DNA from: Candidatus Zixiibacteriota bacterium
Lineage (GTDB): Bacteria > Zixibacteria > MSB-5A5 > WJJR01 > JAJRUJ01
Length of the DNA: 46,325 bases
Reading direction: 5' to 3'
NCBI GenBank assembly: GCA_020051695.1
Contig: JAGVQM010000038.1
Location: 1 to 46,325, forward strand
Shown: positions 31,916 to 39,876 of the stretch, piece by piece
Position numbering within the stretch: position 1 is the first letter of the stretch
Layout: every line of letters begins with the position of its first letter
Notes under the pieces: generated by a model
The model's input: only the letters and a program-made list of their open reading frames with translations
What the model was told of the DNA's origin: nothing
Databases searched by the model: none
Position numbers and translations under genes: made by a program

Positions 31916-34900
31916 TCAGGCAAGTGCGGCCTTGATTGTCTGCCGGAGATGCTCAGGGGCAAATGGTTTTTCCAGGAACGGAGACGTTTTACCCAGGGGG
32001 CTTTCCCTGACCGCTGTGCTGCGGGCATAACCGGACATGAAGACGACTTTCAGATCGGGACGTTGCCTGACCAACCGTTCGGCCAGGTCGATGCCGCTCA
32101 TATGAGGCATGACAATATCGGTCAACAAGACACTGATCGCATTACCCGCACTACGATATTTTTCCAGGGCATCGTCGCCGTTTCGCGCGGCGACCACCCC
32201 GTGGCCCTGTGCTTCCAGAATTTTACACACCATCTCCCGGACTTCGTTTTCGTCTTCCACGACCATGATGACCCCGTTGTCCCGGGACGGTGACCGGCCG
32301 TCTGCTGCCGGGGCTTCGTATCGCGGCAGGTAGATGGCAAACGTCGTGCCGTGGTTTAAGGTGCTGTCGACCGCAATTTTCCCGCCGTTATTGGTGATGA
32401 TCCCATAGACTGTGGCCAGTCCCAGGCCCGTTCCTTTGCCGGCCTCTTTGGTGGTAAAAAACGGCTCGAAGATGTGGTTTTTAGTCTGTTCGTCCATTCC
32501 CGTGCCGGTGTCGGCGACACTCAATCGTACGTACGGTCCGGCCGTCAGCCCCAACCCCCGGGCCCCGGCGCCCTCCAGATTAACATTGGAAGTTTCCACG
32601 GTAATCCGTCCGCCCTCGGGCATCGCGTCGCGCGCATTAATCACCAGGTTCATCAGGACCTGCTCGAGCTGTCCCGGATCGGCTTTGATTGTGCCGAGCC
32701 CGGGGCCGGCCACGGTGACCAGCTCGATCTTCTCGCCGATCAGCCGCCGCAGCATTTTGTTGATCCCGATAATGACGGTGTTCATATTGAGCACTTGTGA
32801 TTCCACGGCCTGTTTGCGGCTGAACGCCAGGAGCTGCCGGGTCAGACTGGCTGCTTGTTCGGCGGTCTCTCTGATCTCGCGGGCATGGTGGACCAGCGGA
32901 TCGTCGGCCTGCAGGCGGAGTGTCAGCAGCTCGGCATGGCCGGAGATAACGGAAATCAGGTTATTGAAATCATGCGCCACACCTCCCGCCACGCGGCCGA
33001 TGGCTTCCATTTTCTGGGCCTGGCGCAACTGCTGTTCACTTTGCTGGAGGGCCATTTCAGTCCGGCGGTGGTCGGTGATATCCAGCGCATAGAGGTTGAC
33101 ATACCCGGCGTCGGTTACCGGCTTCATGAACATCAAGTATATCGTGTCGCCGCATTTGAATTCGAAGTCCTGCTGTTGTCCTGTCTGTAATGTTTCGTCC
33201 ATCCTCCGGCGCCATTCCTCCGGGACCGGTTGACCGACCGTGGTCTGCCAGCCGCGCAGCAGGCCGCCGCTTTGCTCGTTGGCATAATTGATGATGCCGT
33301 GTTTGTCGACGCGCAGCACCGGGTTGGGGTTTTCCTGGGTAAACCGGCCCAGCATCCTGATCTGGTCTTCATACTGTTTGTGCGGGGTGATGTCCTCGAA
33401 GATGGTGGCAAAGCGTGCGTGCCCGGTGGAAAAGGCCGAGATGCGGAATGTCCTGTTCATCGATTCGATATACTGCTCAAAATGCACCGGGTCACCTGAT
33501 TCGACGACCTGCGCGTACACTTTCAGGAACGGCGCTTCCGCAGTCTGGTACACCTCGGTGGCCCGGCGGCCGATGACCGCGCGCTGTTCCAGCCCGAGGA
33601 TCTGCTCATAAGCGGGATTGACATCGATGAGCAGGTAATCAAGGGGCGTCCCGTTCTCGTCGCAGATAAGTTCATGGAGGGCCATGCCCTCGTTCATCGA
33701 GGAATACAGCGTGCGATATTTTTCTTCGCTGTTGCGCAGCCCCTCTTCGGCTTGTTTGCGGTCGGTAATGTCCAGGGCATATTCGATCATCTGCCTGACG
33801 TTTCCCTGGGCATCGAGGATGGGATACCCGTGGACCTCACTGACGCGCCGTTTCTCGCCGGCGTCGGTGTACACGTGTTCCACGCGGGCCGGTTGCTTTG
33901 TTTTTTTCACGATGGCCAGCGGGCAGGGGCAGTGCGGGGCTTCGCAGGGTGCGGACAGATCGTACATCAGGGCATGGCAGGTCGAGCGCTCACTGGAGAT
34001 GTTGAACCCGGTGGCCGAATTGGCCAGGGCGATGGAATAGTCATCCGCATTGACGACATAAAACGGGTGGGCCAGTGATTCGATGGTGTTTTTAATCAAT
34101 TCGTCACGGGCATTGATAATTTGTTCGGCGTATTTGCGGTCGGTAATATCGCGGACCACGCCGGTAATTTGGACGACGGTGTCTCCCTCTCGGACATTTT
34201 TATTGATTTCTTCGACATAATATATTGTGCCGTCATTACCCACCAGCCGGCATTCGGTCAGGAACTCACCGCCGGTCTCGACAGCATGGCGCAGGTTGTT
34301 GGTGATGCGCTCGTGGTCGTCCGGATGGATGAATTCCAGCAGGTTTCGTCCAATCACGTCGTCGGGCGTGTACCCATAACGCGCTACCTGCGGGCTGGCA
34401 TACCGGATAAACCCATCCGGGGTATAGGAAATGATCAAGTCGAATGTGTTTTCGATAATCGTGCGGTACTGCGCCTCATTTTCCCGATGCCGGTTTTCCG
34501 CAAGCGCCCGCGCGGTGACTTCGCGGAATGTGGCCAGGACGGCCCGTGTATCTTCCCAGGGGATAATGGTGGCGGTGATATCCATCAGACAGACCGAGCC
34601 ATCGGCCCGCAGCAGTTCCATGCCGTCGAAGACCCCGCCGTACACCCGCAGCCGGGCCAGCAGTTCTTCGTGCGAGGATGTGGCCTGGGTCTTGAACAAC
34701 CGGGCAACCGGGCTGCCGACGATAGTGTCGGGCGGATAGCCGAGGACATCGTTAATTACCCGGCTGACCCGCAGGACATTACCGTCCTCGCCGACGATCA
34801 TCAGGATATCGAGCGATTCCTGGAAGATCTGGTCCAGGATTTTTTGCGCCTGCGCGGTAGCGCGGCGGGACAATTCCCGGGCGCCGACATCATGGAACGT

Positions 34901-37879
34901 CCCCAGAAAGACCGTGGTATTGTCGGGACCAGCCAGCGGGGTCAGCGCGGCATCGTACGTTTTATTCGTTGTTGCTGAATGCCAGCGCCAGCGCCCGATT
35001 GTGCCACCGGCGGCTTCCGCCATCCGGCACCAGGGACAGGGCTGCTCCCGGTTGTCCAAATATTCGTGGCATGTTTTTCCCTGGGGCGGGCCAAACTGAC
35101 TGACTAATGCCGCATTGGCATATAACAGCCGGTATTGTCGGTCAACGATATAGACGTCATTTTGTATTGCATCAAGAATGTCGGCGGTGGCCTTTTTCAT
35201 GTGCAGGCGGTCGGTGATTTCCCTGATGAGCACGAAACTTGCCGCGGCGCCGTTGAACGTGATCAGGGCGATATTGATCTCAATCTCGATTTTCCGTCCG
35301 TCGCGATGGCGTATGGCGGTCTGGTAGATTGTCGGCACTTCCTCGCCGGCCATCCGCCGGGTGTGTATCTCGTTGACTTTTTCCAGCTCGTCCGGGGTGA
35401 TATAATTTGCAAACGGCGTGCCGATCATTTCCTCGACCGTATACCCGGACATCTCGGCCAGGCGGGGATTGATAAAGACGAGGTGGGAATTCTGGATTAC
35501 CGCGATGCCGTCATGGGCACGCTCGATCAGGTTCCGATAGCGTTCTTCACTTTCCTTCAATTTGATTTCGATGCGTTTGCGTTCCGTGATGTCCTTGTCG
35601 ATCCCGCGGTAACCGGCAAAATGTCCATCCTCATCAAAGATCGGGACGCCGTTGGTCAGGAGGCAGACTTCCTTGCCCTTTTTGGTCAGGTTCCAGTTCT
35701 CCAGATCGACAATCGGTTTTTTCTCTGCGAGAATCTCCTGAAATATCCTGCCGACACGCTCTGCCTCTTGCGGCGGCATGAATTGGAAAGGCCTTTTGCC
35801 GATGATTTCTTCCGGATCATAACCCAGGATGTCTTTTATCCTTCCGGAAGCGAAAGTATATGTCCCGTTTTTGTCTATCTCCCACACCCAGTCCGTGGTG
35901 CTCAGGACGATCCCCTGAAATCTCCCTTCCGATTCACGTAATTGCTCTTCCTTATGTCTGCGTTCGGCGATCTCCAGGGCCAACCCGGCAGCATTGGCCA
36001 TCGATACTGTAAAATTCTCTTCGTCAAGGGCCCAGCGCCGGGCCGGGCCGATATGCTCGCAGCAGACAACACCGGCGATTCGTCCGCCGGTGATGATGGG
36101 AGCATCAATCATTGACGTAATGCCCAGCGGCGCCAGATATGAATCGGAAAATTCCCTGGTATGAGGATCAGTGTGCGCGTTATGCGCGACGATGGTGGTA
36201 TTTTCCTCCAGAGCGGCGAAATACGCCGGATACTGTTTCCGCGGCAATTCCATACCACAGGAATGCCGTTCCGCACCGCTTTCATATAAATCCAGACATT
36301 GGATCTTCGTTTCCTGCCGGTCGAATGTCCAGATGCCGGCGCGTGCGACTCCAAGCGTTTCGACGATGGTCTCGGTAATGCGGCGAAGGGCACTGCGCAG
36401 GTCGCCCTGGACTAGAATTTTCCGCATGTCCAGCCGGGCCAACGCGGCGTTTTGCCGCTTCAAGCGAGCTTCACTTTCACGCAGGGCGTTGGCGGATTGC
36501 TTGCGCTGAGTAATGTTGCGCGCGATGCCACACACCCCGGTGATTGTCCCGTCGTCCTCGCGGACGGGCATCCGGACCATGTGCAACGTCACCGGTTTGC
36601 CCTTGATCGGCCGGGTGATTTCCTCTTCCACTGTTTCGCCGGCCAGCGCCCGTCTGTCGACATCGTGGAGCAGGTCGCGGCTTTCCCCGACAATGCCGAA
36701 AACATCATCTTCGGTCCGGCCGAGGATGTCCGACGCCGGGAGGCCGAGCAATGCCTCCATACTGGGATTGACCAGGGTATAGGCGAAAGTCTGGTCTTTG
36801 GTAAAAATAATGTCCCCGGCCGAAGAGATGAGCGCGCGGAGCTGTTGTTCGTTTTCGCGGAGCGTGCGCACGGTTGCGTCACGCTCGGTGATGTCTTCAC
36901 CGGAACTCACGGTACCGAGGACCGTTCCATCTTCACCGGTCAGTACGGTGTTATGCCAGGCAATGAGGCGCTCCTCGCCGCCGGCCGTACACACCGGGTT
37001 TTCATAGTATTCCCGGGCCTCGCCTTTGCCCTGCATCAGCAGGTTGAACGTCGTCTTGATGCGGACGCGCAGACGTTCAGGGATGAACGTCTCAACCCAA
37101 TCTTTGCCGATAATCTCCGCTTCCGGCAGACCCAGAACGTTGCAGCACCTGCGGTTGACGCGGATCGCGCGGCCCTGCCGGTCCAGGGCGACGACCATCG
37201 CACCGATGAGGTCAAAATATTGCTGGATCGTTTCCTTCTCCCGCCGCACCGTGCGTTGAGCCAGCTGTTGAGTGGTAACGTCACGGAAAACCAGCACCGC
37301 CCCGGTGATTGCTTTGTTCCGGTCGTGGATTACAGCGGCACAATATTCAAAAAATTTCGATGAGCCGTTTTTGTCGATGGCCAGCAGTTGTCGAGCCGGA
37401 TCACCCGCGTTCGATTCAGCCGCCAATAATTCGAGGGGGCGCAGCGGTTCCGGCAGGCCCGCAGTGGAGTGGCTGAAAAGCCGATGCGCCGGCTGTCCCA
37501 TTGCTTGTTCCGTCCGGTGGCCGGTCAGTTCTTCAGCAGCCGGATTGATATACGTGACCATGCCGTCGAGGTCCACGGCAATGACGGCGTCGCCGATGCT
37601 TTGCAGGGTAGTGGATAACCATTCATTGCCGGCCCGGAATGCTTCCAGCGCCCGGTGGCGGGCAGCGATTAGATGCGCGACAATCACCCCAAACGCCAGA
37701 AAGCAGGACAGCAGGATGGCGCTGTTGTAATTTTCATAACGGGGGACACTCAGGAGCAATTGCCAGAACGACCCGCGATCGAAGACAAGCGCATTCAATG
37801 CACTGTCGACGACGATAATAAACAGTCCGAAAACAATCGACAGCGCCAGTATTTTATATTCAGTCCTGGTTTTGCGCAT
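31916..37879 (-). CDS. Giant multi-PAS hybrid sensor histidine kinase
   Basis: 1987-residue membrane kinase. Two membrane helices (about 8-28 and 53-73) bracket a very short external loop. Then I count 11 PAS domains, with a GAF domain (about 480-640) between the third and fourth. The kinase core follows with the H-box [16 protein letters not shown] (H1636), [14 protein letters not shown] (N-box), [10 protein letters not shown], and [21 protein letters not shown]-terminal receiver domain holds D1921 in [12 protein letters not shown] and K in [12 protein letters not shown] 37879 is chosen; GTG 37891 is also possible. With almost no periplasmic part, sensing must be intracellular, by redox, ligand or light through PAS cofactors. 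No partner regulator gene is adjacent. It converges on nuoD2. Confidence 0.93.
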
Positions 37880-38167
37880 TGGAACCGTCACATGTTCGAT
37901 GGCCGCAATTCAGCACATGAGCATCCTATTTCCGGTGACAACCCAGATGTACCAGCAGGTGCTCGACGCCCGACGGATTGCCGGATGATATTCTCCCCCG
38001 CTCCACCAATCTTTCCGGGGGTTGCATATTCTTTATATCGGCAACCACCGGAGCATCTTCATTTGGCCCCGGGAGACAGGGCGTGCGCCGATAAGTTTTT
38101 TGCTGATAATTAGATAACGGTGACGGCTGGATTGGTCCCAAGCCGGGATCATACCCCGGCGGCCAGA
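37880..38167. other. Gene-free gap between kinase and polyferredoxin genes
   Basis: About 290 bases. I see no convincing gene, promoter or repeat family. A short hairpin GCCGGG...CCCGGC (around 38140-38160) lies near the end of the minus-strand polyferredoxin transcript. The promoter of the giant kinase should lie here but no clear hexamers stand out. Confidence 0.4.
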
Positions 38168-39267: not shown

Positions 39268-39454
39268 TGTCGTCATGAGCCCAATATGTGAAATCTTACT
39301 CGATCTGTAAACATTAACAAGAGTGTTTCTGACAATTTGGCGGGTGTCCGGCACGGAGCTTTCTGACGCGGTAATATATGTTGATAAACGGGATGCTCGA
39401 GCTGCATATTAGTCTTCTGAAAAAACCGAGGTGTGAAGGCACGGGAGGTGTTTC

Positions 39455-39802
39455 ATGAAGAAAATCGACTGGGGCTATCTGCGCCCGGGGTGAAAGACCT
39501 GCCAGAAAACGCAGGAGTTTCTTGCGCATAACAATATTTTTACCACTGAAGAAGTAAACGCCCGTAAGGCAACGTTTTCCGAAAAGGATTTGCCGGCCAT
39601 CACCGGTGCGGTCAACGAGATTTACGCCATTAAAGGGAAAAAAATCGTGCATTTCGATTTGCGCTGCGACAAACCGGACGCCGCCGAGCTGGCCCGGGTG
39701 CTGCTGGGCCCGACCGGCAACCTGCGCGCTCCTGCCTTGCGGCGCGGCAAAACACTGCTGGTCGGGTTTGACGAGGAAACCTATCGGCGCATATTCGGCT
39801 GA
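39455..39802 (+). CDS. ArsC-family thioredoxin-fold selenoprotein (in-frame TGA = Sec13)
   Basis: 115-residue protein read through one in-frame TGA (39491-39493). Start ATG 39455 has a strong GGAGGTG six bases upstream. The product begins MKKIDWGYLRPG, then Sec13, then KTCQKTQEFLAHN, making a U-x-x-C redox site (Sec13, Cys16); relatives carry Cys at this place (pattern G-C-x-T-C-Q-K-T). The rest is continuous and family-like: VNARKATFSEKDLPAI, KKIVHFDLRCDKPD, LGPTGNLRAPALRRGKTLLV and FDEETY, ending at TGA 39800-39802. A hairpin fitting a bacterial SECIS starts inside the TGA. The fold is that of ArsC/Spx-like reductases; a thiol-disulfide or detoxification role is inferred. selA, selB and selC are not in the window. 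A nonsense-mutated pseudogene is the alternative. Confidence 0.85.
39492..39521 (+). promoter_or_regulatory. SECIS-like hairpin for selenocysteine insertion
   Basis: Directly after and overlapping the TGA: GAAA (39492-39495), GA, CCTGC (39498-39502), an eight-base loop CAGAAAAC with a G near its 5' side, GCAGG (39511-39515), AG, TTTC (39518-39521). This gives an inner stem of five pairs, a tandem G-A internal loop and an outer stem of four. Bacterial SECIS elements lie just behind the UGA and show a loop G. The loop here is closer to the UGA than in many described cases (10-17 bases). Confidence 0.6.
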
Positions 39803-39876
39803 GTCATCCGCTATTCTGCCTGGCTGATATTGTTTTCGCCAAATAGCATAGAGTATTGAATCAGGAGGAGTCAATA

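Follow-up and report, generated by a model that had tools for sequence, protein, structure and literature searches.

Classical arsenate reductases (ArsC) carry a C-x-x-S motif. Selenocysteine (Sec) forms of classical ArsC, with UxxS, are listed in PMC2398784, and ArsC-like selenoproteins were already counted in 2006 (PMC1794560). The UxxC kind appears as "Arsenate reductase 2" (cd03032) in the 2008 Global Ocean Sampling selenoproteome of marine metagenomes (PMC2398784), appears again in a 2022 review (PMC9312934) and is listed as NF041106 (ArsC_rel_Se_1), "Arsenate reductase-like protein, UxxC", among the prokaryotic selenoproteins of a 2026 review (PMC13188914). The gene described here, from a 46,325 nt stretch of Candidatus Zixiibacteriota bacterium DNA (contig JAGVQM010000038.1, hereafter the window), is therefore of a known kind and not a discovery: the family is already catalogued and the gene is one more member.

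The window protein resembles NF041106 over its whole length, with UxxC and a TGA-coded Sec at the same position, and no difference was found. Likeness to Arsenate reductase 2, drawn from the published listing, is that of an ArsC-like protein with UxxC. Spx (TIGR01617) shares the ArsC-like fold group and a CxxC near the N-terminus but has Cys where the window protein has Sec, and the latter falls well below the Spx cut-off; Grx-linked classical ArsC (TIGR00014) belongs to the same ArsC Pfam family but differs in its CxxS/UxxS motif.

An in-frame TGA within an ArsC-like gene

The gene and its elements are located as follows.

39444..39450, + strand: ribosome-binding site GGAGGTG, 4-6 nt before the ATG, read in the sequence
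39455..39802, + strand: predicted ArsC-like selenoprotein gene, 115 residues with Sec at 13, from NF041106, homologues and codon-position bias
39491-39493, + strand: predicted Sec codon TGA, residue 13, first residue of U-K-T-C; TGA in 31 of 33 homologues, TGC in 2
39500..39502, + strand: codon of the putative resolving Cys16 (UxxC), invariant in a 26-sequence alignment, Ser in L065 and L070

The initial annotation had described a frame opening at ATG 39455 behind a strong GGAGGTG site and broken by the TGA at codon 13 alone, and the sequence confirms it up to the terminal TGA at 39800-39802. It had also proposed one continuous family-like protein around that TGA. The read-through protein matches NCBIfam NF041106, "ArsC family (seleno)protein", at 130.7 bits (curated cut-off 85) along the full profile (1-107, protein residues 4-110), that is, on both sides of the TGA, and U13-K-T-C16 occupies the aligned position of the Sec/Cys-x-x-Cys motif. 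Pfam ArsC (PF03960) is barely above its cut-off of 24 at 26.3 bits, Spx TIGR01617 reaches 30.2 bits against a cut-off of 75.05, and no match to classical ArsC (TIGR00014) was reported in the NCBIfam profile search. Judged by profile, the predicted protein is a clear, ordinary NF041106 member, and the assignment to an ArsC-like family is borne out by this score along with the homologues.

Between the window and five homologues, third codon positions show 62-69 differences and positions 1 and 2 show 22-42; this excess and the NF041106 match on both TGA sides indicate a frame that is more than chance. We consider the small gene with its in-frame TGA to be real. In the gene's frame, the standard ORF listing (table 11) holds only a 70-aa ORF from TTG 39590, in line with the earlier expectation that automatic calling would start near that position and lose the active site. 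An antisense ORF of 186 aa (39314-39874, − strand) spans the selenoprotein gene; it could mislead gene callers, and automatic annotation might pick it instead.

Within the 26-sequence alignment, W6, R10, C/U13, C16, P74, G88, LRAP 90-93, G104 and Y110 are invariant. Two distant members, L065 and L070, have UxxS (UKSS and UTTS) in place of UxxC, and thus the second Cys is not universal. No neighbour of the gene in the window is common to any of the 33 homologue loci considered below, among which neighbour genes are shared within close clades only. At 31916-37891 (− strand) the window encodes a hybrid sensor histidine kinase of 1991 aa that has many PAS domains as well as a receiver domain.

Codon 13 in homologues and the Sec machinery

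A scan of genome contigs provided 33 homologues (37-63% identity), whose hosts include Acidobacteria, Planctomycetes, Nitrospinota, Zixiibacteriota, Myxococcales and others. All 33 read across the site, codon 13 being TGA in 31 and TGC (Cys) in two (L015 and L019). In a search of 132 genomes from the window's own phylum, 18 gave a match over the NF041106 cut-off: all 16 copies that include the codon have a single TGA there, and the remaining two (G001, G078) begin just past it, where their contig ends or within a few bases of that point. The two sets overlap, the G033 copy being on the same contig as L014. Neither TAA nor TAG was found at codon 13 in the 33 homologues or in the 16 own-phylum copies. 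Position 13 is therefore always Sec or Cys in the homologue alignment, as anticipated when the TGA was placed at the first residue of C-x-x-C, and no pattern of random nonsense changes is seen among the homologues.

Five genomes of the same order (G002, G003, G004, G005 and G007; loci L085, L086, L088, L089 and L092) contain more distant ArsC-like ORFs, each having a single TGA in frame. These score 24-38 bits against NF041106, whose cut-off is 85, and possibly represent another ArsC/Grx-like selenoprotein family.

The genome (3.53 Mb, 98.9% complete) contains the following Sec machinery loci.

C6:152281-152374: selC (tRNA-Sec) with UCA anticodon, 69.9 bits
C6:150907-152229: selA, 504.8 bits
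C6:149015-150871: selB, 342.3 bits
L049 325-2529 (G000 C38) and L050 around 1450-2520 (G000 C12): the two selD loci, one a fusion and one free-standing

selC, selA and selB lie side by side on contig C6. One of the two selD genes is fused behind a cysteine-desulfurase-like domain and has Cys at its active site, SelD fusions being already known (mentioned in PMC9312934); the second is free-standing and carries a TGA in frame, with a GGU-loop hairpin after it. A search for selA, selB, selC and selD in the same genome thus found all four, which is what a bacterial selenoprotein requires. All 10 tested genomes with homologues have selA, including both hosts of Cys variants, so that loss of the Sec machinery is not supported as the cause of these variants. 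A search for the UGSC family found nothing in the genome, but the control was equally silent.

Because of the homologues and the Sec machinery of the genome, the reading of this gene as a selenoprotein, with TGA coding for Sec as first suggested, is well supported, the insertion event being what we infer from them. The opposite view would take the TGA for a nonsense change or a sequencing error in a former Cys-type ArsC-like gene. Table 11 formally reads TGA as a stop and a single change suffices to turn TGT or TGC into TGA, but an identical TGA in nearly all homologues of several phyla and in every own-phylum copy that includes the codon, without TAA or TAG, already refutes a pseudogene or error; selection acting on the frame downstream of the TGA and the presence of the Sec machinery also argue against it, leaving it a next to negligible probability. 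A related proposal, that TTG 39590 is the true start and the upstream part is untranslated, is exceedingly improbable: it has the 70-aa ORF of the standard listing on its side, yet the strong Shine-Dalgarno sequence and ATG sit at 39455, and the conserved W6, R10, U/C13 and C16 are all encoded upstream of 39590.

Two overlapping hairpins downstream of the TGA

In bacteria, SelB bound to an mRNA hairpin (SECIS) delivers Sec-tRNA to UGA, and how SelB recognises the SECIS varies in part from species to species. Two structures in the window were considered for this role.

39510-39526, + strand: bacterial SECIS candidate CGCAGGA-GUU-UCUUGCG, from stem, spacing, covariation and absence in Cys homologues
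39492-39521, + strand: alternative hairpin, minimum free energy (MFE) fold, -11.5 kcal/mol

The bacterial SECIS model as given in PMC13188914 has a loop of 3-9 nt with G in loop position 1 or 2, a spacing of 16-37 nt, a stem of 4-16 bp and an MFE of at most -7.5 kcal/mol. With 7 bp, a GUU loop and 23 nt from the UGA, the 39510-39526 hairpin agrees with the loop, spacing and stem rules; in isolation it folds at -7.1 kcal/mol, which falls slightly short of the energy cut-off. Across 22 distinct Sec homologues it is 96.1% paired and two of its pairs show compensatory changes; its covariation score is above 500 of 500 shuffles and all slid versions, considering that members of this alignment were picked for sharing the 39510-39526 register, which favours that hairpin. 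When the window was recoded synonymously 500 times, no version gave an equally stable hairpin of this type; the same test in Sec homologues gave 1 to 88 of 500, single cases not all being significant.

Sec homologues have a hairpin of the SECIS type, whereas neither Cys homologue does. An anammox-type clade (L007-L009, L011-L013 and L016) has an equivalent GCCCAAG-AGUU-CUUGGGC hairpin with a one-base shift, and L014 and L033 have other hairpins, the loop G being kept in all of these; L065 shows a weak one only (-3.1). An Rfam scan of the window gave no match at all, SECIS included, and the Rfam SECIS_1 search was uninformative, with none in the genome and none in control genomes either.

The initial annotation had pointed to a hairpin with a loop G beginning at the TGA. 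That structure, 39492-39521, can form and is more stable than the 39510-39526 hairpin, yet of the two it is the latter that is conserved. The loop of 39492-39521 begins 9 nt past the UGA, against 16-37 in the model, and has its first G at position 3. In the same 22 Sec homologues it is 84.8% paired, a value that 316 of 500 shuffles reach, and its covariation is not above shuffles; the amino acids encoded there account just as well for its partial conservation. In view of its spacing, its loop and its covariation, we reject it as probably not the SECIS, for which 39510-39526 appears the better candidate. The 3′ arm of 39492-39521 uses the 5′ arm of 39510-39526, and one could speculate that the former acts as a switch lowering Sec insertion until unfolded, which we regard as very improbable.

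Proposed function

The locus almost certainly encodes a small NF041106-type protein with a Sec-x-x-Cys active site, a predicted thioredoxin-fold oxidoreductase, in which UGA 39491 is read as Sec, guided by the 39510-39526 hairpin. The invariant UxxC motif, W6 and R10, along with an R-A-P segment that we take to resemble the thioredoxin-fold cis-proline loop, would fit a thiol/selenol redox enzyme from the ArsC/Spx/Grx fold group, and an ArsC/Spx fold is what the sequence leads us to infer. SelB and Sec-tRNA(Sec) would read the UGA with 39510-39526 as guide, Sec13 would be the nucleophile attacking an oxidised substrate and Cys16 may resolve the resulting selenenyl-sulfide or mixed intermediate.

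An arsenate reductase proper is an unlikely identity: the PF03960 match just past its cut-off speaks for it, but UxxC is not the classical ArsC motif, ars genes are absent among the flanking genes scanned and the closest solved structures by sequence (PDB) are Spx proteins (E 3e-5 to 5e-4). Those matches, the CxxC position and the sub-cut-off TIGR01617 score would be consistent with an Spx-like RNA-polymerase-binding redox regulator, a role that is decidedly unlikely for a protein whose score is under the cut-off of every Spx model in the profile search.

The predicted Sec-x-x-Cys oxidoreductase of the NF041106 kind adds one more species to a known selenoprotein family, with its probable SECIS placed, and sets right a gene model from which standard calling would cut off the active site.
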